A DNA stretch of 30,005 nt from a virus. A program made the translations under genes and the position numbers. Location of the stretch: positions 1 through 30,005 of the IMG/VR virus record IMGVR_UViG_3300045136_000824, one strand, 5' to 3'. The notes under the pieces were generated by a model. The model was not told the origin of the DNA. It saw nothing but the letters and a program-made list of their open reading frames with translations, and ran no database searches. The number at the start of each line of letters is the position of its first letter. Position 1 is the first letter of the stretch. Shown here piece by piece: positions 1,273-15,980 of the stretch.

Positions 1273-1797
1273 ATGAAGACCGAAAACGAAATCCGAGAAG
1301 AGATCGAGGCGCTCCGCAGCCTGACCACGGCGCAGCTCAAGGAGAAGTACCGCGAGGTCTTCGGCGAGGAGTCCCGATCCAATCACAAGCAGTTCCTGTT
1401 CCGCCGCATCGCCTGGCGCATCCAGGCCAACGCCTGGGGCGGCCTCTCCGAACGCGCCCGCCGCCGCGCGCTCGAGATTGCGGACGACGCTGATCTCCGT
1501 ATCCGGGCGCCCAAGAACTTCTTGCGGGAGCCGGTTGATGATGGCCGCACATCGGAGGCGCGAGTGAAGCCATCGCTTGACCCGCGGCTGCCGCTACCTG
1601 GCACGCCGCTCATCCGCCGCTATCGGGGCAAGGACATCATCGTCCACGTCCGTCCCGATGGCGGCTTCGAGTGCAACGGCAGGATCTACATGTCGCTGAG
1701 CCGCGCGGTGACCGAGGCGACGGGCACGCGGTGGAACGGCTTTGCCTTTTACAACCTTGGCCACCGGCCAGGAGCGAAGCATGGCAAACGGGAATAA
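1273..1797 (+). CDS. DUF2924 domain protein
   Basis: The protein is 174 residues and shows the DUF2924 pattern: EIEALRSLTTAQLKEKY, then RSNHKQFLFRRIAWRIQ, GGLSERARRRA and a C-terminal RWNGFAFYN. The function of DUF2924 is not established; family members commonly lie directly before serine recombinases, as here. The start at ATG 1273 leaves a 4-nt gap from the small upstream gene. An in-frame ATG at 1252 would overlap that gene by 17 nt and is the alternative. The 3' end overlaps the recombinase start by 17 nt. The basic, Arg-rich character suggests DNA binding, perhaps as an accessory or directionality factor, but that is inference from context. Confidence 0.85.
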   Translation: MKTENEIREEIEALRSLTTAQLKEKYREVFGEESRSNHKQFLFRRIAWRIQANAWGGLSERARRRALEIADDADLRIRAPKNFLREPVDDGRTSEARVKPSLDPRLPLPGTPLIRRYRGKDIIVHVRPDGGFECNGRIYMSLSRAVTEATGTRWNGFAFYNLGHRPGAKHGKRE

Positions 1798-3310
1798 CGG
1801 CAACGGCGCGCCAAAGCCGGTCCGTTGCGCCATCTACACGCGCAAGTCCACCGACGAGGGCCTGAATCAGGACTTTAACTCCCTCGACGCGCAGCGCGAC
1901 GCCGGCGAGGCTTACATCCGCAGCCAGGCCGGCGAGGGCTGGACGCTGGTACCCATGCAGTACGACGACGGCGGCTACACCGGCGCCAACATGGACCGTC
2001 CGGCGCTGCGCCGTCTGCTGGCGGACATCCAGGCCAAGAAGGTCGATTGCGTCGTGGTCTACAAGGTGGACCGGCTCAGCCGGTCGATCCGGGACTTCGG
2101 CCGGATCATGGAGATCCTGGAGAAGCACGGCGCGACGTTCGTTTCGGTCACCCAGCAGTTCAACACGACCACCTCCCTCGGCCGGCTCACGCTCAACATC
2201 CTGCTTTCCTTCGCGCAATTCGAACGGGAGATCATCAGCGAGCGCACCCGCGACAAGCAGATCCTGGCGCGCAAGCGCGGCAAGTGGACCGGCGGCCACG
2301 TCCCGCTGGGGTACGACCTTGTGGACGGCTGCCTGGCGGTCAACGAGGAGGAGGCCGCGCGCGTGCGCCGAATCTTCGAGTGGTACCTGGAAGGTCACTC
2401 CGTCCATGGCATCGTGGCGAAATGCGAGGGCTTCGGTTGGCGCAACAAGGAGTGGGCCACCAAGGAAGGTAAGACGTTCGGCGGCCATCCTATGCGGAAG
2501 TGCCACATCTACACGATGCTGGCCAACCCGCTGTACGCCGCGCAGATCCGGGCAGGTGACGAGATCGTCGCCGCGGCCCACCCCCGGATCGTCGACGACA
2601 ACACCTTCGACCTGGTCCAGCAGAAGCTGAAGGAGAACACGCGGAATCCCGGCGGTGCGCACGGGCCAAGAGTGGAAGCCCTGCTGCGCGGACTCCTCTA
2701 TTGCGCTGCCTGCGGATCGGCCATGTCACCGAGCTACTCTTCGAGCAAGAACCGGCGCTACCGGTACTACGTCTGCCTTCGCAGCATGCAGCGGAACGGT
2801 GACGGGTGCACAACGCGCGCCGTGTCCGCGCCGGTGGTCGAGGAGGCGGTCATTGAGAGCGTCCGGCGGTTCGCCGCGCAGCCCGAGGTCGTGGAAGCGA
2901 TCGCCCGTGCGGCGCGCCAGCGGTTGAGCGAAGAACTGGACCGGCACCGCGAGGAGCTGAAGGCGATCAACGTCCGCCTGCGGAACGCGAAGTCGCAACT
3001 CGTGCGCGCGAAGAACCTCGACGCCGACCGGGAGGCCGCGCTCCGCGACCTCGTTTCGTCGGGAGAGGCCAAAGCGGACCAACTCCGCAGCTTGGTGGAG
3101 CGCGGCGAACGGCTTAGGTTCGATGACCAGATGGTGCGCCAGCGCATGGCGACGTTTGACGAGGTCTGGAAGACCATGACGATCCAGCAGCAGGCCGCGC
3201 TGCTGCGCCAATTGATCGAACGGGTCGGCTACGACGCCCGCGGCGACAAGGTCAAGGTCACCTACCACTCGAACGGCATCCGGGAGTTCTCGAAAGGAGC
3301 GTCAAAGTGA
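1781..3310 (+). CDS. Large serine recombinase (resolvase/integrase family)
   Basis: At 509 residues this is the size of a large serine integrase. The N-terminal resolvase domain (about 14-160) has the motif RCAIYTRKST with likely catalytic Ser23 and nearby Arg21, then YKVDRLSRS and the long helix with FEREIISERT. The central recombinase domain follows (about 180-290), then a zinc ribbon beginning CAACGSAM at about 308, paired with later Cys residues, and a coiled coil (about 380-450). ATG 1781 is preceded by AGGAG at 1770-1774; a longer in-frame start at 1742 lacks this. Such enzymes integrate and excise phages or islands through a Ser-DNA covalent intermediate. It is the best candidate for the recombinase that moves this element. 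Confidence 0.95.
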   Translation: MANGNNGNGAPKPVRCAIYTRKSTDEGLNQDFNSLDAQRDAGEAYIRSQAGEGWTLVPMQYDDGGYTGANMDRPALRRLLADIQAKKVDCVVVYKVDRLSRSIRDFGRIMEILEKHGATFVSVTQQFNTTTSLGRLTLNILLSFAQFEREIISERTRDKQILARKRGKWTGGHVPLGYDLVDGCLAVNEEEAARVRRIFEWYLEGHSVHGIVAKCEGFGWRNKEWATKEGKTFGGHPMRKCHIYTMLANPLYAAQIRAGDEIVAAAHPRIVDDNTFDLVQQKLKENTRNPGGAHGPRVEALLRGLLYCAACGSAMSPSYSSSKNRRYRYYVCLRSMQRNGDGCTTRAVSAPVVEEAVIESVRRFAAQPEVVEAIARAARQRLSEELDRHREELKAINVRLRNAKSQLVRAKNLDADREAALRDLVSSGEAKADQLRSLVERGERLRFDDQMVRQRMATFDEVWKTMTIQQQAALLRQLIERVGYDARGDKVKVTYHSNGIREFSKGASK

Positions 3311-3696
3311 AGGACCGCTGTGAAGACGAGATTCCGCTCAAGTGGCCGGCGGGCCAGGCGGCGGGCAGGCCGAAGAAGAGTGCGGCTCCGGCGCCGCCGC
3401 GCATTCCCCGGATCACCCGCCTGATGGCGCTGGCGATTAAGTTCCAGGACATGATCGACCGTGGCGAGGTGAAGGACTACGCGGAATTGGCCCGCCTGGG
3501 CTTCGTGACGCGAGCGCGGGTCACGCAGATCATGAACCTGCTCAATCTCGCGCCGCAGATCCAGGAAACGCTCTTGTTTCCGAATGAGAACACGAGTGGT
3601 CGATCGCTGGTCAGCGAGCACGACCTCAGATCAGTCACGCGTGCGGTGCTGTGGCAGGACCAGATTTCCGCTTTTGACCCTCGACTAGACGCTTGA
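3307..3696 (+). CDS. Small helix-turn-helix protein downstream of recombinase
   Basis: The start GTG 3307 overlaps the recombinase stop by 4 nt (GTGA), which implies coupled expression. The 129-residue product has a Pro/Lys-rich N-terminus (AGRPKKSAAPAPPRIPR), then a helical segment and an HTH of the ParB/KorB kind: DYAELARLGFVTRARVTQIMNLLNLAP (about residues 58-84). Proteins of this form are often found directly after serine recombinases. A role as DNA-binding partner or regulator of the recombinase is inferred from position; no target site could be assigned. Confidence 0.75.
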   Translation: MKDRCEDEIPLKWPAGQAAGRPKKSAAPAPPRIPRITRLMALAIKFQDMIDRGEVKDYAELARLGFVTRARVTQIMNLLNLAPQIQETLLFPNENTSGRSLVSEHDLRSVTRAVLWQDQISAFDPRLDA

Positions 3697-4019: not shown

Positions 4020-5577
<1,558 letters not shown>

Positions 5578-5588
<11 letters not shown>

Positions 5589-6921
5589 GTGGATCGAAAT
5601 CCCTATTGGCGAAATCGCAGAGATATTCGATGGGCCTCACGCTACGCCGGCTAAGACAGAATCTGGCCCTATTTTCCTCGGCATTTCTAATCTCGATCGG
5701 GGCCGATTAAATCTCACCGAAACCGAGCGGCTATCAGAAGACGATTGGAAGCGCTGGACACGCCGTGTTACGCCTCGACCAGGCGACGTAGTGTTCTCTT
5801 ATGAAACCCGAATTGGAGAAGCTGCGCTCATTCCGGAGGATCTCAAGTGCTGCCTCGGGCGGAGAATGGGACTGTTGCGTGCGCGGCCAGGAAAAGTAGA
5901 ACCGCGGTTTCTGCTTTATGCGTACCTCGGTCCGCAATTTCAGGAAATGCTCAGGTCACGCACGGTTCACGGCAGCACCGTTGACCGCATCCCACTCATC
6001 GAAATGCCCGGGTTTCCGATTCGTTTGCCGAAGGAACAGGCGACACAGCGCGCCATCGCCTGCATCCTCGGCTCTCTGGACGACAAGATTGAATTGAATC
6101 GGCGGATGAACCGGACGCTGGAGGAGATGGCGCGGGCGATCTTCAAGAGCTGGTTCATCGACTTCGACCCGGTGCGCGCCAAGGCCCGAGTCCGCCGCGA
6201 GCATCCGAAGTGGACCGACGACCAGGTCAGCCGCGCCGCCTGTCCGAAGCTGAAACCCGAAATCGCCCGCCTCTTCCCCGACAGCTTCGAGGACTCCGAA
6301 CTCGGCGAGATTCCGAAGGGGTGGGCCGCACGAACCCTAGCCGACCTCGCGGAACTGAACCCGGAAAGCTGGTCCAAGGAGACGGCTCCGGACTGGATCG
6401 AGTATGTGGATTTGTCGAACACGAAGCGGGGCGTTATTGAGTCCACGACTGAATTCTCGTGGGAGAGTGCCCCAAGCCGCGCTCAGAGAGTTCTCCGGCC
6501 AGGAGACACAATCATTGGAACTGTGCGTCCAGGGAACTGCTCCTATGCCCTTATCTCCCGCAACGGCTTGACTGGTAGCACGGGATTCGCAGCACTGAGA
6601 CCGCACCGACCTGAATTCGAAGAGTTTGTCTATCTTGCGGCGACATACCCTGAAAACATTGATCGCTTGGCACATCTTGCAGATGGGGCGGCTTACCCGG
6701 CTGTGCGGCCTGAGGTGGTCCTTAACTCACCTACTGTTCGGTCGCCAGATCAGGTGCTGCGGGAGTTCCATAGAATCACGGATCCTATGCTGGCGAAGAT
6801 TGCCGCGCAATCCACTCAGTCGCGCACCCTTGCCGCCCTTCGCGACGCCCTGCTACCAAAGCTGATTTCCGGCCAATTGCGTATCCGTGACGCCGAACGT
6901 ATTGTTCAAAGAAAGGTTTAA
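5578..6921 (+). CDS. hsdS: Type I restriction-modification specificity subunit HsdS
   Basis: The 447-residue protein has the two-TRD layout of HsdS. TRD1 covers about residues 5-160, the central conserved helix is [30 protein letters not shown] (about 162-195), TRD2 covers about 245-400, and the distal helix ends with [15 protein letters not shown]. Each TRD should recognise one half of a bipartite DNA target, and the helices set the spacer. The recognition sequence cannot be read from the protein. The DNA of both TRDs is visibly less GC-rich (about 52% in a sampled 60 bp) than hsdM, a usual sign of TRD exchange. The start lies within the 3' end of hsdM. Confidence 0.96.
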
Positions 6922-6924
6922 GTC

Positions 6925-8157
6925 ATGGCCAGACGAAAACAACCCGGCCGCGCTCGGATCGAGCAGCTTCGCGTGGAGAACTACCGCGCCTTGCGGTCCA
7001 TTGAAGTCAAGGACATCACGCCCTTCACCGTCCTGCTCGGCCCGAACGGCAGCGGCAAGTCCACCATTTTCGACGTATTCAATTTCCTGGCGGAGTGTTT
7101 CCAGTTCGGCTTGCGGCATGCTTGGGACCGGCGGGGACGCGGCAAAGAATTGAAGACCCGCGGCCAGACCGGACCCGTGGTGATCGAACTGAAGTACCGG
7201 GAGCAGCCGGGCCAGCCGGTCATCACCTACCATCTCGCTCTCGACGAAGGGCAGAAGGGCGCCTATGTCGCTGAGGAATGGCTCCAGTGGCGGAGGGGAA
7301 GGCGGGGGCAACCATTCCGCTTTCTCGACTATCGCGAGGGGAAAGGCCGTGCCGTTAGCGGCGAGTTACCAGATGAAAGCGATCAACGGATAGACATACC
7401 GCTGAAGGCCCCGGATCTGATTGCGGTCAACGCCTTAGGACAGTTTGCCGAACACCCTCGGGTGGCTGCTTTGCGTGAGTTCATTACCGATTGGTATGTC
7501 TCGTACCTCTCGATCGAAGACACGCGGGGACAGCCGGAGGCCGGACCGCAGGAGCGCTTGAGCAAGACGGGCGACAACCTGGCTAACGTCATCCAGTACC
7601 TGCGGGAACGGCACCCGCAGCGGTTGGATCAGATCTTCGACACGTTACGGAAGCGCGTGCCGCGCCTGGAGAAGGTGCTGGCGGACTCGATGCCTGATGG
7701 CCGGCTGCTGCTGCAAATCAAGGATGCTCCCTTCGAGCAGCCGATCCTGTCGCGGTTCGCCTCCGACGGGACACTCAAAATGCTCTCGTATCTGGTCGTG
7801 CTCTACGACCCGGACCCGCCGCAGTTCATCGGCATCGAAGAACCGGAAAACTTTCTCCACCCCCGGCTCTTGCCGGATCTCGGGGAAGAGTGCCGCAAGG
7901 CGACGCAGCATTCACAGCTTCTCGTCACGACGCATTCCCCTTTCTTCCTCGATTCGGCGAAACCCGAGGAAGTCCGTATCCTCTATCGGGACGACAACGG
8001 GTATACCCAGACGGTCCGCGCCGCGGACGTTCAAGGGGTGAAGGAATTCATCGCAGCCGGCGCATCGATGGGGCATCTCTGGCTCGAAGGCCGGTTCGGA
8101 GTGGGTGATCCCCTGGTCAACTCGGGCGCGCCGCGCCCAAGGGGGCGCGCGCGGTGA
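6925..8157 (+). CDS. AAA ATPase (ABC/OLD-like) embedded in the R-M operon
   Basis: The 410-residue protein has a complete ABC-type ATPase core. It starts [17 protein letters not shown] and carries Walker [10 protein letters not shown] (38-46), a signature-like [10 protein letters not shown], Walker [13 protein letters not shown] (about 300-310) and the H-loop TTHSPFFLD (about 334). This is the AAA_21/AAA_15 group that includes the ATPase parts of OLD nucleases and PARIS AriA. There is no C-terminal TOPRIM domain; the next gene supplies a candidate. It starts 3 nt after hsdS and overlaps the next gene by 4 nt. It probably forms a sensor/effector complex with the DUF4276 protein; anti-phage function is inferred from family and position. 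Confidence 0.9.
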
Positions 8158-8768
8158 TGGTTTCGCACGTAGAGATCCTGGTTGAGGAGCCGTCGATGGA
8201 GGCGGCGTTGCGGCTGATCATTCCCAAGATCAGTAATGCCTTGTCCTTCGAGATCTATTCACACCGGTGCAAGCAGGACCTGCTGGGCAAGCTCCCCGCA
8301 CGGCTGAAAGGCTACGCCGCGTGGTTGCCGCAGGACTGGCGCATCGTGGTGATTGTGGACCGGGACGACGACGATTGCGCGGCCTTAAAACGGAAGTTGG
8401 AAAGGGCGGCCAAAGACGCGGGCCTGACTTCGAGAACCCAAAGGGGCAGCGGCGGGTTTCAAGTGGTGAATCGCCTGGCCATCGAGGAACTCGAGGCGTG
8501 GTTCTTCGGAGATTGGGATGCTGTTTGCGCCGCCTATCCCGGTGTGGATCAGAATGTTCCGAACAAGAGCAAATATCGTGATCCGGATGCGATATCTGGA
8601 GGCACTTGGGAAGCGCTGGAGCGAGTCCTCCGAAGAGCAGGACATTTTCAAACGGGTTTGAGAAAGATCGAAGCCGCTCGGGCGATCGCGCAGCACATGA
8701 ACCCGACGGCGAACCGTTCGCAGAGCTTCCGTGCGTTCCGGGATGCGCTGAGCGAAATGACGTCATGA
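8154..8768 (+). CDS. DUF4276 protein, TOPRIM-like putative nuclease partner of the ATPase
   Basis: The 204-residue protein resembles DUF4276. It shows a TOPRIM-type layout: a first strand ending in acidic residues (VEILVEEP, Glu11/Glu12), then a strand followed by [10 protein letters not shown] with Asp69 and Asp71 as a DxD motif. [14 protein letters not shown] further on is typical of the family. TOPRIM domains bind metal and cut or rejoin nucleic acid. It is coupled on both sides: GTGA overlap with the ATPase gene and ATGA overlap with hsdR. ATG 8157 is an alternative start. The pairing parallels AriA/AriB of PARIS and two-gene OLD-like systems. The TOPRIM assignment is by motif only. Confidence 0.82.
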
Positions 8769-11700
8769 GCCACGCAGCCCGAGGTTTCACCGAATCCATT
8801 GTCGAGCAAGCCGCGCTGGCTTGGCTTGAAAGCCTCGGCTATGCCGTCCTTGCCGGACCGGAGATCGCCCCGGGCGAGCCCCAGGCCGAGCGCGAGGACT
8901 ACCGCCAGGTGGTGCTCGAACGGCGGATCCGGCAGGCGCTCGAACGTCTGAATCCTCGGTGCTCCAGTGACGTGCTGGAGGAGGCGTACCGGAAGCTCAC
9001 GCGGCCGGAGTCGCCCTTGCTGGTGGCAAACAACCGCACGGTTCACAGGTACCTCGTCGAGGGCGTGCCCGTTGAATTCACGCGGCCGGATGGGTCCATC
9101 GGCAGCGACGCAGCGCGGGTTCTCGATTATGAACGGCCGGATCAAAACGACTTCCTCGCCGTGCACCAATTCACGGTGGTGGAAGATCATCGCGAGCGCC
9201 GCGCGGACGTGGTGATCTTCGTCAACGGCCTGCCACTCGCGGTGATCGAACTCAAGAACGCGGTCTCCGGCGGCGCGACGATCTGGTCGGCGTTCAACCA
9301 GCTCCAAACGTACAAGCAGGACATCCCGTCGCTCTTCACATTCAACGAGGCGCTGGTCATCTCCGATGGCGTCGAGGCGCGCATTGGGACCTTGACCGCT
9401 GACCGGGAATGGTTCATGCCCTGGCGAACGGTCGAGGGAGAAGACCTGGCCGATACGCGGCTCCCGCAACTCCAGGTTGTCCTGGAGGGGGTGTTCGACA
9501 AACGCCGGTTCCTGGATCTGATCCGCTATTTCATCGTGTTCGAAGATACCGGCGGCGGAACACTCGTAAAGAAGATGGCCGGCTATCACCAGTACCACGC
9601 GGTGAATCTTGCCGTGGAATCCACGGTGAGAGCCGCTGGCGCGGGCGGCGACAGGCGCGCGGGCGTGGTTTGGCACACGCAAGGGTCGGGGAAAAGCTTG
9701 ACGATGGCGTTCTACGCCGGGCGAGTGGTGCAGCATCCGGCAATGGAGAACCCAACGCTGGTGGTGATCACCGACCGGAACGATCTGGATGACCAGCTTT
9801 ACGGAACGTTCGCCCGTTGCCACGAATTGCTCCGGCAACAACCGAGCCAAGCTCTCAACCGGGCGCATCTCCGCGAGCTGCTCACGACGGGTTCGGGTGG
9901 TGTGATCTTCACAACGGTACAGAAGTTCTTCCCCACCGAGGGCGAAGACCAGCATCCGTTGCTGTCAGACCGTCGAAACATTGTGGTGATTGCCGACGAG
10001 GCCCACCGGAGCCAGTACGACTTCATCGACGGCTTCGCGCGCCACATGCGGGAGGCCCTGCCGAACGCTTCGTTCATTGGTTTTACGGGCACGCCGATCG
10101 AACTCGAAGACAAGAACACCCGGGCGGTTTTCGGTAACTACGTCAGCATTTACGACATCGAGCGCGCCGTGAAGGACGGCGCCACGGTGCCCATCTACTA
10201 TGAAAGCCGTCTCGCAAGGCTGGCGCTGGATGAGAGCGAAAAGCCCAAATTGGACGAGGAGTTCGAGGAGCTCACCGAGGGCGAAGAGGTCGAGCACAAA
10301 GAGCGGCTGAAAACCAAGTGGGCGCAGTTGGAGGCCTTGGCCGGCACCGAGAAACGCGTCGCTTTGATCGCACAAGATCTCGTCGATCATTTTGAGCGGC
10401 GCCTGGAAGCGATGGAAGGCAAGGCGATGGTGGTCTGCATGAGCCGGCGTATCTGCGTAGCTCTATACAACGCCATCGCGAAGATTCGGCCCGGCTGGCA
10501 CCACGAGGATGACGACAAGGGCCAGTTGAAGATCGTGATGACCGGCTCGGCCGCTGACCCGCTCGACTGGCAACCCCACATCCGCAACAAGCAGCGGCGC
10601 GAAGGGCTGGCCGCGCGATTCAAGGATCCGAAGGACCCATTCCAGATCGTCATCGTGCGCGACATGTGGCTGACCGGATTTGACGTCCCTTGCCTGCACA
10701 CGATGTACCTGGATAAGCCGATGCGCGGCCATGGCCTCATGCAGGCGATCGCGCGCGTGAACCGGGTGTTCCGGGACAAACCCGGCGGCCTCGTGGTGGA
10801 TTACCTCGGTCTGGCCCACGAACTCAAGCAGGCGCTGGCCAACTACACCGAGAGCGGGGGGAAAGGTCAGACGGCGGTGGACCAGACTGAAGCGGTCGCC
10901 GTGATGCTCTCAAGATATGAGGTGTGCTGTGGTATGTTCCACGGGTTTGACCGCTCCCAGTGGAACGCAGGGACGCCGCAGCAACGCCTCTCCGTGCTGC
11001 CCGCCGCACAGGAACATATTCTCAGGCAGGAAGACGGGAAGAACCGTTTCCTGAAAGCTGTCGGCGACTTGTCCAAGGCCTTCGCTCTGGCAGTACCCCA
11101 CGACAACGCGCTGGAGATACGGGATGACGTGGCGTTCTTCCAGGCGGTCCGGACGGTCCTGACAAAGAGTGCGACCGGCGGACGGCGCAGTCCCGAGGAC
11201 TTGGAACTAGCCATCCGGCAGATCGTGTCGCGCGCGGTGGCTTCCGATGGGGTCATCGACATTTTCGAGGCTGCCGGGCTGAACAAGCCGGACATCTCGA
11301 TCTTGTCGGATGAATTCCTCACTGAAATTCGGGGCATGCCGCACAAGAACCTCGCGGTCGAGATGCTTCGCAAGCTTCTTGAAGGCGAAATCCGGACCCG
11401 CGGCAGAAAGAACATCGTGCAAGGGCGCGCATTCTCGCAGCTTCTGGAAGACGCGATCCGGCGATACCAGAACCGGGCTATTGAAACGGCCCAGGTGATT
11501 GAAGAGTTGATCGCTCTTGCGAAGGACATGCGTGAGGCGGACCGCCGCGGCGAGAACTTGGGGTTGACCGAGGACGAGATTGCCTTCTATGACGCGCTCG
11601 AAGTCAACGATAGCGCCGTGAAGGTCCTGGGGGATGAAACGCTGCGCACGATTGCGCAAGAGCTGGTGCGCACCGTTCGGGAAAACGTGAGAATCGACTG

Positions 11701-11863
11701 GACTGCCCGCGAGAACGTGCGCGCCCAGATGCGGGTGATGGTGAAGCGAATCCTCCGGCGATACGGCTATCCGCCAGACAAACAAGCCCGGGCAACGGAA
11801 CTTGTCCTGGAACAGGCGGAAGTGCTGTGCCTGGACTGGGCCGAACAAGATTCGCCGGTGTAA
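8765..11863 (+). CDS. hsdR: Type I restriction endonuclease subunit HsdR
   Basis: The 1032-residue protein has the HsdR architecture. The N-terminal nuclease domain contains [20 protein letters not shown] (about 147-163), a PD-(D/E)xK site. The SF2 translocase has Walker A HTQGSGKS (about 304), DEAH in [13 protein letters not shown] (about 409), FTGTPIE, and the later [15 protein letters not shown] motif. A helical C-terminus binds the methylase core. It translocates DNA from unmethylated sites using ATP and cuts far from the site. ATG 8765 overlaps the DUF4276 stop by 4 nt; an upstream in-frame start at 8606 would run deep into that gene. No damage is visible. Confidence 0.97.
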
Positions 11864-11920
11864 CATTGAGGTGAAGAACGCCGTCGCAGTCAAGCGCGAA
11901 TTCGCTAGACGGGAGCAGGC

Positions 11921-12344
11921 ATGGCATATACGTCGGAACAGCTGAACAGGATTTACGATCGAACGTCAGGATACTGCCACATCTGCTGCAAGAAGCTCTC
12001 GTTCAAGCACTACGGCCGGTACGGCGAGAGAGGGGCGTGGCACGCGGAGCACTCGCGGCCGCGGGCGAGAGGCGGCACCAACCACGGCAACAGCTGTACG
12101 CCGCCTGCATCGATTGCAACCTCGAAAAGTCAACGGTGAGCTCTCGCGCACGGCGCGCGCATGGAATGGCCGTCGAAAAGCCCCACTCTCTCGCGAGCGT
12201 AGGATCGGGGCCAAGAAGTCCGCCGCCATGGCTGGAGGGCTTCTGGGTGCAGCGGTTGGCGCGCTGGCGGGCCCCTGGGGCGCCATAGCCGGCGCGGCGA
12301 TCGGAGCGAGGCTGGGGTACGAGACCGACCCGAACGAGCGCTGA
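11921..12344 (+). pseudogene. HNH endonuclease with glycine-zipper tail, broken by two frameshifts
   Basis: Three consecutive reading frames together give one protein. Frame 1 from ATG 11921 starts [20 protein letters not shown] and reaches [18 protein letters not shown]. It then jumps near 12093 to [17 protein letters not shown], and near 12145 to ARAWNGRRKAPLSRERR, ending in a Gly/Ala-rich GGLLGAAVGALAGPWGAIAG stretch. The jumps fit loss of one base and gain of two. The CHIC / EH / N / CxxC set is that of an HNH (McrA-like) nuclease, and the tail is a membrane-type glycine zipper. It follows hsdR by 57 nt. Sequencing error cannot be excluded; otherwise the nuclease is inactive. Confidence 0.8.
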
Positions 12345-12636
12345 CCGGCCGAAGCGTTGTCCGCTGACATCGAATTCTTCGCCAGCGGATCGTCAGAATT
12401 CCGTCGCAGTTGACGCCGGGCGCAACGTACCTCAAAGCCGTGCTGGTCTACACGCCAATCGCTTGATTCCTAAGATGTTTTCCTGATGCGAGTCTGTCTG
12501 TTCTACCGATTGCATTTGCCCCGGACTCTAGAATTAGGATGGAAATTGGTCTCGCTTTTCCCTCCGCCCGAGCGGGAGTCACGCTTCGGCCATCGGCGGC
12601 GCGCGACCGGCAAGCAAGGCTAGGCTGACCCCTGCG
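12345..12636. other. Intergenic region before the unknown two-gene cassette
   Basis: About 290 bp carry no convincing gene. The middle (about 12465-12550) is less GC-rich than its surroundings and includes TAGAAT at 12529-12534, which could serve as a -10 element, but no good -35 lies at 16-18 bp. It probably contains the promoter of the cassette that starts at 12637. Confidence 0.4.
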
Positions 12637-13803
12637 ATGGCAAAGCACCGGGCGTTCAACGCTGACAGATACCTCGACAAATTCGAGGGCCATGAAGGCC
12701 TCCTCCGTTCCTACGCGGGCATCTGGAACGACGGCCTCCTGGTCGATGTCGCTTTACTGGACGTGCAGAGCTTCAAGGAGTTCATCGTCAACGGCGACGG
12801 CGACCGGAAGGACGAGTTCATGGAGGGCCTGTACCGGGCGTATGACCTCAGCAACGAGCGCGGCCATGAGGACTTGGCCGCCTCGTGCCGGGATCTCGGC
12901 TACGATCCCGATCCTGGCGGCGTGCTTCCCGTGGAGTGTCTCAGCCTGAAGGTCCGCACCGACAACGAGGAGGCCTTCAACCTGGCCTATGACCGGTGCG
13001 CCATTCATCAGGCCGAGCGCTTTTCCGTATTCCAGGGGGAGGCCGGCCGGAGCATCCCGGATGTGAAGGCCGCCACGGACCAGCTACAGGAGAAGCTGTC
13101 GGCGGTCTTCAAAGGTGACAAGAACAGTGACCGCGTGCTGGTGCGCCAGTATCAGGAGGGCGCTTACACGAACTTCATCGTCTATCACGAGAAGCGCACG
13201 CAGGCGATGCTGGTTTTCAAGGGCTCCCGGATCAAACCCAGGGTGTCGCCGACCGTTCTCCGTCCCGCTCAACAAGACTTCCTCAGCTACAACACCGAGA
13301 CCGGCCAAGTCGAAATCGAAGCCAGATTCGAGAAGGAAGAGAGCGCCCTCCGGAAGAGTTTCGCGGAGTGCTGCTTCGGCGACCCGGAGTTGTTCGAGAA
13401 GCCCGAAGCGGCCCAGAAGTTCACGCTCGGCGTGATCGCCTGTGAGGACTTTGCGCTGGAGGTGGACGACGGCGATTCGGCCGCCCTGGTTGAGCTTCAT
13501 TTCAGGCTCAAGCAGAAGCATGGCCCGGCATTTGTCATCCGATCCAAGAACGTCCTGGAAACGCTGGACTTGAACTCCCTCCGCAAGCGGCTTTCGGGCG
13601 CAACCATCCAGAAGGCCGTCTTCAAGATCGGGTTCCCTGATGACCGGCGCGGGAAACGCGTCGAGGTGAGCGGGACGAACAAGATCTCGTTCAAGTGCGC
13701 CACGCACGCGGAAGACGTGTTCCGGTATTTGGAAAGGTGGAAGATCCTCGGTGCCGGCAAGCCTGCTCCATCTGGTTCTGCGGTTATTGAACAGCTGCAA
13801 TGA
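12637..13803 (+). CDS. Unknown protein, first gene of a two-gene cassette
   Basis: The 388-residue protein was not recognised. It starts at ATG 12637 with only a weak ribosome site. Alternating hydrophobic stretches in the middle (VLVRQYQEGAYTNFIVY, QAMLVFKGSRI) suggest a mixed alpha/beta fold. The C-terminal segment ISFKCATHAEDVFRYLERWKIL could be a small winged-helix-like or strand-helix element. It has no signal peptide, membrane segment or obvious catalytic motif. It overlaps the next gene by about 50 nt, so the two are probably made together. It lies between an R-M system and phage replication genes, where accessory or defence functions are common; no function is assigned. Confidence 0.85.
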   Translation: MAKHRAFNADRYLDKFEGHEGLLRSYAGIWNDGLLVDVALLDVQSFKEFIVNGDGDRKDEFMEGLYRAYDLSNERGHEDLAASCRDLGYDPDPGGVLPVECLSLKVRTDNEEAFNLAYDRCAIHQAERFSVFQGEAGRSIPDVKAATDQLQEKLSAVFKGDKNSDRVLVRQYQEGAYTNFIVYHEKRTQAMLVFKGSRIKPRVSPTVLRPAQQDFLSYNTETGQVEIEARFEKEESALRKSFAECCFGDPELFEKPEAAQKFTLGVIACEDFALEVDDGDSAALVELHFRLKQKHGPAFVIRSKNVLETLDLNSLRKRLSGATIQKAVFKIGFPDDRRGKRVEVSGTNKISFKCATHAEDVFRYLERWKILGAGKPAPSGSAVIEQLQ

Positions 13804-14956
13804 ACCTGTGATCGCTGCATCGGATGTGGCGAGGTACCCTGCCGATCAGTTCCTGGAGTTGGCCGGCGCCGGGATCTTGCGGGAAACCAGCCGAGCCACC
13901 GAGATCGCGCGGCCGATGCGGTACGGGCCTGGCGAAAGTCTGATTGTGTGCGAGACGGCGCGTGGGCTGTTCGGCGTAGCTTCCGAAGACGATTACCACG
14001 ATCCGTTGCCGCTGACCGAGGAAGATGTCAGACAGTATTCGGTCTCGATAATAGGATTAGTGAAGGAGATACGGCGCCGGAACGAGATCATCGGAGGCGA
14101 TGTCCGCAATGACGATGGGCTGATCCTGATCGGGACAAAGCAAGTTCCGGGGATCGCGAGGTTCCCGGTCTACTTATCGCTGCCAAACATCGACCAGGCG
14201 GCGCTGCTCGAACGATGCCTGCGTGCCAGGCGAGGGACCGCCAGCGCAATCGCGGTAGTGATCGTCCCGGAGGAAACCTGCGTCACCGCAGAGCTCCAAC
14301 GGACGCTCGACGAAAGCGGAGTGCGGGTCATCTCATTGCCGCCGACGGATGCGCTGGAAGACCTGGCCCTGGATTGGTCAGCCGCCTTGCAGCCGCTGCC
14401 GGGAAGCTCCTCCGAGAAGGAGCGGTATGTCTTCCGGAAGAAAGGGCAGTCGTGGGAGCTCACCTTTGAAGGACGGGCCACTCTGGTGAGCGAGAGCAAG
14501 GGCATTCTTTACATCGCGGAACTGATGCGGTCCCCTGGGCGCGAGGTTTTCGTTGCGGAACTTCTGGCTGCCGCGCGCGGGGTGGCCCAAGTGCCCGTTG
14601 GTGCCGCTGGCGAGACCCTCGACGATAAGGCTCGGCGAGACTACCGCCGGCGTGCCGAAGATCTGAAGTACCAGCTTGCCGAGGCGGAAAGGAACAACGA
14701 CTCGGGCCGATTCGAGAGCATCCGGTGGGAACTCGAGGAGTTGGCGGGCCAGATCCTCGCCGGGAGGGGACTTTCCGGGCGTCCACGCCGAAGTCAGGAC
14801 GACCGGGACCGTATTCGGAAATCCGTGTCGATGGCCATTGAGCGTGCCATCGGGGCCATACGCAAGCACGCCCCCGCCCTTGGGGAGCACCTCGACAAGC
14901 ATATCCACCGAGGCTACTTCCTCTCCTACTCGGGATCGATCCCCTGGAAATTCTGA
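13751..14956 (+). CDS. Unknown protein with winged-helix-like ends, second gene of the cassette
   Basis: The 401-residue protein probably starts at GTG 13751, inside the upstream gene. The resulting N-terminus (LLHLVLRLLNSC, then FLELAGAGILRE) reads like a winged helix; GTG 13808 is the shorter alternative. The middle alternates strands and helices (GLILIGTKQVPG, AIAVVIVPEE). The C-terminal third has GILYIAELMRSPGREVFVAELL, a charged coiled coil (about 295-335) and an ending with AIGAIRKHAPALGEHLDKHI. I recall this C-terminal module from bacterial proteins with BTAD-like or regulatory domains. It may be a DNA-binding sensor or regulator, but this is tentative. Confidence 0.8.
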   Translation: MPASLLHLVLRLLNSCNEPVIAASDVARYPADQFLELAGAGILRETSRATEIARPMRYGPGESLIVCETARGLFGVASEDDYHDPLPLTEEDVRQYSVSIIGLVKEIRRRNEIIGGDVRNDDGLILIGTKQVPGIARFPVYLSLPNIDQAALLERCLRARRGTASAIAVVIVPEETCVTAELQRTLDESGVRVISLPPTDALEDLALDWSAALQPLPGSSSEKERYVFRKKGQSWELTFEGRATLVSESKGILYIAELMRSPGREVFVAELLAAARGVAQVPVGAAGETLDDKARRDYRRRAEDLKYQLAEAERNNDSGRFESIRWELEELAGQILAGRGLSGRPRRSQDDRDRIRKSVSMAIERAIGAIRKHAPALGEHLDKHIHRGYFLSYSGSIPWKF

Positions 14957-14969
14957 AATTCCTCGCGAT

Positions 14970-15006
14970 GCCACGCCATTTGTGGCAATGCCACGCCGGA
15001 TGTGGC
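14970..15006. promoter_or_regulatory. Two tandem 17-bp dyads, probable operator
   Basis: GCCAC-N7-GTGGC occurs at 14970-14986 and again at 14990-15006. The arms are identical and the spacing is exactly 20 bp, close to two helical turns, so bound dimers would sit on one face of the DNA. The first dyad begins 14 bp after the stop of the unknown cassette, and the pair lies about 120 bp before the first gene of the replication operon. There is no T-run, so a terminator is unlikely. The binding protein is not known. Confidence 0.6.
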
Positions 15007-15124
15007 GCCTCGTTCTTGAAGGCGTTGCCCCCGGCGTTCGATGTGAAGACGCGAGGAACGGTGAGAACCCCTCCGTGGCCTCCCGACACCGGGCAACTCC
15101 TTGATTTCGAACGAGGAGTTCTCG

Positions 15125-15475
15125 GTGAAACCACCCAGGTCAAAATCCTCCCTCTCTGGGCCGCAGCAGCGACTTGTCGAGTTGATGCAGCAGATCAACT
15201 TCGGCCGGATCGAGGACCTATTGGTACGGAATGGATTACCGGTCTTCAATCCGCCTCCCCGTGTAATCCGGAAGCTGAAGGTTGGCGCTGATAATTCTCC
15301 CCGTCCCGAATACAGCTTCGATGACTTTCTGCTGAGGCAGCAGACGGAAGAGCTGCTATCGGCCATCGAGCAGATGGGCGACGGCGAGGTTCTGGTCATC
15401 GATGTCCGCCACGGCTTGCCGTTTTCTCTCGAGATTGAGCACCTGCCGGAGACAACGGGGGCGCGCCGTGGCTGA
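15125..15475 (+). CDS. Small unknown protein opening the replication operon
   Basis: GTG 15125 is preceded by AGGAG (15114-15118) at 6 nt, which makes it a better start than the upstream in-frame TTG at 15101. The 116-residue product begins KPPRSKSSLSGPQQRLVELMQQ and has a helical N-terminal half (VELMQQINFGRIEDLLV). A strand-rich end contains GEVLVIDVRHGLPFSLEIEH. I do not recognise a named family. It overlaps the sigma-like gene by 8 nt and is the first gene of a long operon, so it probably belongs to replication or early regulation. Confidence 0.72.
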   Translation: MKPPRSKSSLSGPQQRLVELMQQINFGRIEDLLVRNGLPVFNPPPRVIRKLKVGADNSPRPEYSFDDFLLRQQTEELLSAIEQMGDGEVLVIDVRHGLPFSLEIEHLPETTGARRG

Positions 15476-15980
15476 TAAGAAGTTCGAGCCGGCATTGCCC
15501 TTCGCCATGCGCGCCGTTCAGGTGCGCGGTGCGGCGGCAGTGGCCAGTGGCCGGGTGACACCCGCCGATCGCGAGGACCTCGAGCAGGAAGCCCTCCTGG
15601 GACTGTGGTTGGCCCTGCGACACTATGATGCATCGCGCGCCAGCCTCCGGACTTTCCTCGAGCGCGTGGCGGACAAGCGCTTCGCCTCCCTGCTGCGGCG
15701 CCGCCGGAAGCCCCTTGTGATTGAGCCTCTCGACAGCCAACGGTTCGCTACCGCTGACGGGATCCCGGCGGTCCGGTTCCATGTTGACTTCGAGCGCGTC
15801 CTCGCGCTGCTCGGCGACGCCGACCGCACGCTGGCGCTGCTGCTCATCGACCACGGCCCCACAGAAATCAGCCGGATGCTCGGCGTCGCTCGGTCCACCG
15901 TGTACGCCCGCATGGCGCGGCTGCGCCGGGCGTTCCTCGAGGCAGGTTACGGCCCGGCCCCTACGGGAGGCGCGCGGTGA
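15468..15980 (+). CDS. Sigma-70-like HTH protein
   Basis: The 170-residue protein resembles a small sigma factor. A region-2-like part contains TPADREDLEQEALLGLWLALRHYDASRASLRTFLERVADKRF, with the DLEQEAxLGLW signature. A linker follows, and then a region-4-like HTH, HGPTEISRMLGVARSTVYARMARLRRAF. Start GTG 15468 lies inside the preceding gene; in-frame codons further upstream give residues unlike sigma factors. The stop overlaps the ParB-like gene (GTGA at 15977). It could direct host RNA polymerase to element promoters, or act only as a DNA-binding regulator; the sequence cannot decide. Confidence 0.8.
   Translation: MADKKFEPALPFAMRAVQVRGAAAVASGRVTPADREDLEQEALLGLWLALRHYDASRASLRTFLERVADKRFASLLRRRRKPLVIEPLDSQRFATADGIPAVRFHVDFERVLALLGDADRTLALLLIDHGPTEISRMLGVARSTVYARMARLRRAFLEAGYGPAPTGGAR

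Follow-up and report, generated by a model that had tools for sequence, protein, structure and literature searches.

What do two overlapping genes, belonging to no family that we could recognize, do between the restriction-modification (R-M) genes and the early genes of a virus? We addressed this question in the virus record IMGVR_UViG_3300045136_000824, analyzed over its whole length of 30,005 bases (hereafter, the window). The genes of the window are ordered as a DUF2924 gene, a serine recombinase, g3307, a type I R-M operon enclosing an HEC-01-like pair, and gene A, followed by gene B, gene C, the sigma-like gene D, a ParB-like gene, a helicase, and a primase. The features on which the analysis relies are:

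1742..3310, + strand: large serine recombinase (integrase; Pfam Resolvase, 1.3e-37)
3307..3696, + strand: g3307, a small gene of HTH-like type that follows the integrase and forms the left border of the cargo slot
4020..11863, + strand: variable cargo, type I R-M genes with the embedded HEC-01-like pair, outside the A-B unit (PADLOC)
12637..13803, + strand: gene A, 388 aa, a protein of predicted RdgC/CENP-N-L fold and predicted non-specific DNA clamp (open reading frame, relatives, fold matches)
13751..14956, + strand: gene B, 401 aa, GTG start; the N-terminal half is conserved and the C-terminal half swappable
14420..14953, + strand: Bc, the C-terminal domain of B (residues 224-401), a predicted OmpR/PhoB-like winged helix with a coiled-coil insertion
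14969..15007, + strand: two tandem palindromes, predicted Bc binding sites
15008..15124, + strand: conserved leader before gene C (alignment of five loci, consensus fold)
15125..15475, + strand: gene C, a small conserved protein and the first gene past the sites (GTG start inferred; the longest open reading frame begins at 15101)
15402..15980, + strand: gene D, sigma-70-region-2-like, start of the early operon (Pfam Sigma70_r2, 3e-10; phrog_1740)

Within the cargo (window 4020-11863), the HEC-01A/B-like ATPase and its partner sit between the specificity and restriction genes of the R-M operon. The left end of the record encodes an NYN-domain protein on the minus strand (410-1120, Pfam 1.1e-20).

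The initial annotation described A and B as two overlapping genes next to an R-M operon and suggested looking for the same pairing in other genomes. The open reading frames do overlap, by 53 nt. As A has relatives in 20 other records (50-90% identity) and a distant one in a 21st (33%), we consider A and B to be real genes. The pairing was readily recovered: B adjoins A on the same strand in all 21 further records with A. Most of these records went into building the A and B profiles, so that the matches arise by construction, which is not true of the adjacency. In this set, one B runs off the end of its contig, and one A contains an interrupting stop. In the phage record L007 (8001-8939), a stop interrupts gene A and B stays open.

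To sample loci independently of A, we used g3307 as bait in viral contigs and took the best 80 of its 246 relatives, two of which (L065 and L068) repeat records already in the set. An iterated profile detected A in 22 of these 80 loci; B adjoins it in 21 of them, and in the last one B is cut off. Profile comparison placed A directly upstream of B in six further B loci (94.7-96.9%). The pair is thus present in 28 of the 80 loci and absent or undetected in 52; among the 28 A-bearing loci of this integrase-anchored sample it is intact in 27, the 28th being cut off. What lies between g3307 and A varies considerably. In 9 of the 22 loci there is no cargo, the A frame starting within about 150 bp of the g3307 frame, while the gap spans about 0.5-9 kb in 11, and the pair is inverted in 2. 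Where it could be resolved, the slot of the remaining g3307-anchored loci holds different genes, for example QatC-like proteins that have a 262-288 aa partner. This occurrence, together with the differing slot content, indicates that A-B is neither universal in the family nor tied to R-M. An association of the pair with the R-M operon, as initially proposed, was therefore rejected: relatives have other cargo between g3307 and A, or none. The R-M neighbor is variable cargo, whereas A-B keeps its partner and its place.

Further pairs came to light in these surveys. A distant A-B pair lies in a Planctomycetota genome (L046, 2673-4899), beside a divergent integrase and a DUF2924-like gene; its A was detected at E=7.9e-8, and both halves were confirmed by profile comparison. 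Unnamed two-gene pairs occupy the same slot elsewhere, namely c21-c22 (L090, L101, L127, and L132) and c55-c56 (L069 and L125), one of which has a weak SAP-like segment. We considered c21-c22, c55-c56, and c58 as distant versions of A-B and discarded them, as no profile matched. Searches with A gave no match in plasmids, A and B gave none in phage records, and B as a single query gave none in viral contigs. Among the titles and abstracts listed in searches of PMC, none describes the pair.

We next consider the genomic setting. A Bryobacteraceae relative carries terminase, portal, capsid/protease, and tape measure genes further along, and a second relative, the source record of L005, carries terminase and portal genes; these genes mark the family of the record as tailed prophages. 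The terminase family PF03354 is absent from the window and was found in 1 of 15 source records, which indicates only that this terminase family is not the one used. The record belongs to a serine-integrase prophage family, in which the place of A-B is the border between the integrase and cargo side and the early genes.

Six of the 21 relatives (L002, L005, L016, L017, L018, and L019) have a LexA/S24 repressor gene whose end lies 4-13 bp ahead of A. Pfam identified the one in L002 (LexA_DNA_bind, 5e-20; Peptidase_S24, 3.6e-32), and the other five were recognized by BLAST to that copy. No S24 repressor stands directly before A in the window or in the other 15 relatives. In L086, L090, and L132, a repressor of this type stands ahead of other occupants of the slot.

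Neither protein could be assigned to a recognized family, in agreement with the initial annotation. For A, we found no Pfam or NCBIfam family at E up to 10 and no match to a curated RdgC family, and for A and B no PADLOC-DB 2.0 family at E up to 1. B had no match above cut-off in Pfam, NCBIfam, or PADLOC, with DUF7553 (E=0.023) and GTP-bdg_M falling below it. The weak PHROGs match of A, to the unnamed family phrog_37634 (E=0.004), covers part of the protein. The same annotation saw no catalytic motif in A, and conservation over 39 homologues agrees: we found none, and the most-conserved residues are mostly hydrophobic or structural.

The structural model of A was more informative. An AlphaFold model based on 21 sequences (pLDDT 79.5, pTM 0.57) matched the PDB structure of RdgC (2owl_A; 224 residues, E=8.4e-6, Z 9.8) with an rmsd of 10.2, which indicates that the domains are shifted. 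It also matched CENP-L (7qoo_L, E=3.9e-6) and CENP-N (6eqt_B, Z 8.6, 185 of 205 residues, rmsd 4.2), and its best match in BFVD was a phage protein annotated as recombination-associated (E=3e-6). With modest TM-scores (about 0.3 to 0.54), the statement holds at the level of the fold: the predicted fold of A is that of RdgC and the kinetochore proteins CENP-N/CENP-L (Chl4/Iml3), a likeness that extends over most of the protein. A differs from these proteins in having no Pfam match and another gene partner, and from CENP-N in about 60 extra N-terminal residues outside the match. Its beta-rich residues 126-375 are basic (pI 8.9) and its N-terminus is acidic (4.6). We detected no sequence relation between A and lambda RexA (0.1% by profile comparison); RexA is also not among the PDB fold matches listed for A, which is no evidence of absence.

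B appears to be modular. In alignments, its N-terminal half (about residues 1-213) is kept together with A, and its C-terminal half is exchanged between loci. The initial annotation had read winged-helix-like segments and a coiled coil from the sequence of this gene, and the AlphaFold model of B (mean pLDDT 81.6) bears this out with a C-terminal winged helix, long helices inserted in it at about residues 292-338, and helical, HTH-like elements at the N-terminus. The fold of Bc (residues 224-397) resembles SaeR (Z 8.4) and PhoB (Z 8.3) over 91 residues each, with a best rmsd of 3.5, at moderate Z. Bc is basic (pI 9.8). It thus resembles OmpR/PhoB DNA-binding domains in predicted fold (Z about 8 over about 90 residues) and in having direct tandem sites, but differs from them in its long coiled-coil insertion, its lack of a receiver domain or a match to the OmpR/PhoB sequence family in Pfam, and the location of its sites just 3' of the gene.

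No membrane segment was found in B: on the Kyte-Doolittle scale, none of its 19-residue windows exceeds 1.6, compared with 51 such windows in lambda RexB. We also examined B as a nuclease, given fold hints to Cdn1, Can2, and RPB5. This candidate was dropped, as the hints are weak and the catalytic residues are not conserved: across 44 homologues, the N-terminal half has no conserved acidic-acidic-lysine set of the PD-(D/E)xK type, and only G128 is invariant.

Bc is not confined to B. It also ends QatC-like proteins, a STAND-like ATPase of a Streptomyces plasmid, TPR proteins, and others, and was found in 8 of 297 genomes of the Acidobacteria (the phylum of G010) and 30 of 246 genomes of the Planctomycetes (that of G021). 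QatC-like proteins ending in Bc occupy the same integrase-linked slot in L087 (3946-6769), L115 (1646-4526), L116 (3096-5925), and L047 (2858-5125). A small partner gene lies beside the QatC-like protein in L087, L115, and L116, and Bc-type palindromes follow the QatC-like genes at all four loci.

The initial annotation also noted a possible operator after the two genes. Here we found two perfect palindromes, TGCCACGCCATTTGTGGCA at 14969-14987 and TGCCACGCCGGATGTGGCG at 14989-15007, 20 bp apart. These are the sole exact matches in the window; allowing up to 3 mismatches, the window holds 5 matches, compared with a shuffle mean of 1.01, and none of 100 shuffles reached 5. Relatives of the same C-terminal class carry tandem palindromes in the same place, in which the arms are different and still self-complementary and the core, containing GCC, is mostly conserved. 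More generally, Bc-bearing genes often have AC-N7-GT palindromes just past their stop.

We therefore compared Bc genes with control ORFs. In a first set of 17 non-redundant Bc genes, from which the site rule itself was drawn, at least one site followed 16 of 17 genes, compared with 422 of 2868 control ORFs, and two or more sites followed 9 of 17, compared with 54 of 2868. A strict rule (AC-GC[C/G]...GT), written before the test, was then applied to newly fetched Bc loci. At least one site was found in 14 of 40, compared with 2 of 245 control ORFs, and two or more in 6 of 40, compared with 0 of 245; two of the 40 (L142 and L151), each with two sites, are repeats of known loci. Once the output of the strict rule had been seen, we loosened the loop and dropped L142 and L151, so that this further test is not blind. 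The looser rule found sites after 21 of 38 new Bc genes, compared with 8 of 245 controls and 0 of 38 at 300-450 nt past the stop, and tandem pairs after 16 of 38; such pairs were seen in 3 of 245 controls, in none of the 38 genes at 300-450 nt, and in 1 of 3800 shuffles. On the first set plus the window, the same rule gave sites after 14 of 18 genes and tandem pairs after 10 of 18. In these tests, genes with under 100 nt past the stop were dropped, and near-identical regions were merged in the first-set and strict tests. Overall, the statistics tie the Bc winged helix to tandem palindromes just 3' of its gene. As 17 of the 38 new Bc genes lack a full unit, the link is strong and not universal.

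At some loci, other C-terminal classes of B come with repeats of their own, including 11-bp direct repeats in L012, L013, L005, and L016. Repeats after B reached p<=0.05 at 9 of 33 non-redundant loci overall, so that the link to sites is firm for the Bc class only. Co-variation between Bc and the palindrome arms was positive, without reaching significance (15 genes, rho 0.26, permutation p=0.087). The asymmetric core, the self-complementary arms, and the location 3' of the gene would also allow the sites to be read as RNA hairpins; a repeat spacing of about 20 bp, together with the winged helix, speaks for DNA as the target of Bc. Taken further, the C-terminal domain of B and the tandem palindromes right 3' of it could form a transferable, so far unnamed control cassette. 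Such a cassette would have become joined to proteins that are unrelated to one another, of which several are immune-like (QatC-like, STAND, TPR, and the partner of the RexA/CENP-N-fold clamp), in prophages, plasmids, and chromosomes, and would read its own 3' flank as DNA or RNA, keeping the module off until needed. We regard this broader reading as tentative.

Past the sites, the leader of gene C shows 77% mean column identity across five loci. It contains an inverted repeat (15095-15120) whose hairpin would cover the ribosome-binding site of C, and the leader may serve the early operon as an element of translational control. Rfam gave no match at 12300-15500 up to E=1, and promoter-like and terminator-like sites in 11800-15500 were at about shuffle level.

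Which known system does the pair resemble most? Lambda RexA has the RdgC/IML3/CHL4 fold, binds DNA non-specifically, and acts on the lambda switch, and its actinophage homologues measure 337-372 aa, according to a published report (PMC11077077). The same paper still calls the molecular mechanism of Rex modules largely unknown. Like lambda RexAB and its Rex-like counterparts in actinophages and in the Pseudomonas putida prophage P1, A-B is a two-gene prophage unit whose first protein has a predicted fold of the RdgC/IML3/CHL4 type, the link to RexA running through this shared fold as reported in that paper. The S24-type repressor directly before A in several relatives (6 of 21) recalls the lambda order. 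This order is cI-rexA-rexB; the lambda record shows three genes arranged accordingly, but labels all three 'rexb'. Two differences stand out: B is a soluble winged-helix protein with its own sites, whereas RexB is a four-helix membrane protein, and A has no sequence similarity to lambda RexA. With a partner that is no membrane protein and an indirect fold link to RexA, A-B is a Rex-type variant by likeness rather than a member.

On the basis of A's predicted fold, the repressor-A-B order seen in some of the relatives, and the prophage location, we propose that A-B is a Rex-like immunity-region module of a temperate phage in which a DNA-binding partner replaces RexB, a reading to which we give about an even chance. 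The pair is probably made in the lysogen, and its role is probably prophage control and exclusion, apart from the neighboring R-M system. By analogy with RexA and RdgC, A would clamp DNA without sequence preference. B, in the position of lambda's membrane protein RexB, would use its C-terminal domain to bind the palindromes and its N-terminal half to bind A. The two proteins would jointly set the expression of their own module and of the early operon and would react to foreign or replicating DNA, with the outcome that the lysogen would exclude a second phage or shift its own switch. The outcome may be exclusion of other phages, control of the phage's own switch, or both.

Other readings of the locus must be weighed against this one. 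The pair could be the prophage's own lysogeny switch with no exclusion role, B and its co-factor A forming an immunity repressor that would sit on the tandem sites and shut off C, D, and the early operon, and the swapped C-terminal halves representing immunity specificities. The location of the sites between B and the early operon fits, as does the exchange of C-terminal halves while the N-terminal half and A are kept, and no S24 or CI-like repressor was recognized among the window proteins scanned. However, six relatives have a separate LexA/S24 repressor directly before A, and the link between Bc and its sites also holds in QatC-like, TPR, and STAND genes, some on plasmids or chromosome contigs without a demonstrated early operon. 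We consider a pure lysogeny switch rather doubtful, though the strongest of the competitors.

The initial annotation favored a defense or accessory unit. Its tie to R-M fell away, while a defense role as such gains from the RexA-relative fold of A and from the QatC-like pairs in the slot. In its explicit form, A-B would be a stand-alone accessory defense cassette of the R-M cargo, with A detecting phage DNA and B as the effector. R-M and HEC-01-like genes adjoin, and QatC-like pairs that share Bc and its sites hold the same slot in sister prophages; these pairs are related to a published minimal QatBC defense unit (PMC13279940). Through them, the QatB-QatC pair of qatABCD is among the known systems closest to A-B; the QatC-like catalytic part is unrelated to A or to the N-terminal half of B. 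Yet the R-M neighborhood is not conserved, PADLOC matches neither protein, and B lacks conserved nuclease residues and a membrane segment, so we judge this reading unlikely. Least probable by far is a partition or segregation device of a phage-plasmid, by analogy with CENP-N/CENP-L at centromeres. CENP-N and CENP-L are among the fold matches of A and a ParB-like gene lies downstream, but the window has only two exact site copies, the L014/L015-type pattern occurs once per genome in 2 of 6 genomes searched, and Bc is linked to its sites alongside unrelated proteins.

If the Rex-like reading is true, A-B would represent a second architecture for Rex-type prophage modules, with a site-specific partner that would make a Rex-like pair directly testable. 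The Rex-type fold and gene order are of an already known kind; what is new is the partner B and its sites. The link between domain and site provides a clear prediction for many unannotated genes. The reading would also extend the RdgC/RexA/CENP-N-L fold to a phage family of Acidobacteria, Planctomycetes, and others, an extension that bears on the origin of kinetochore proteins.
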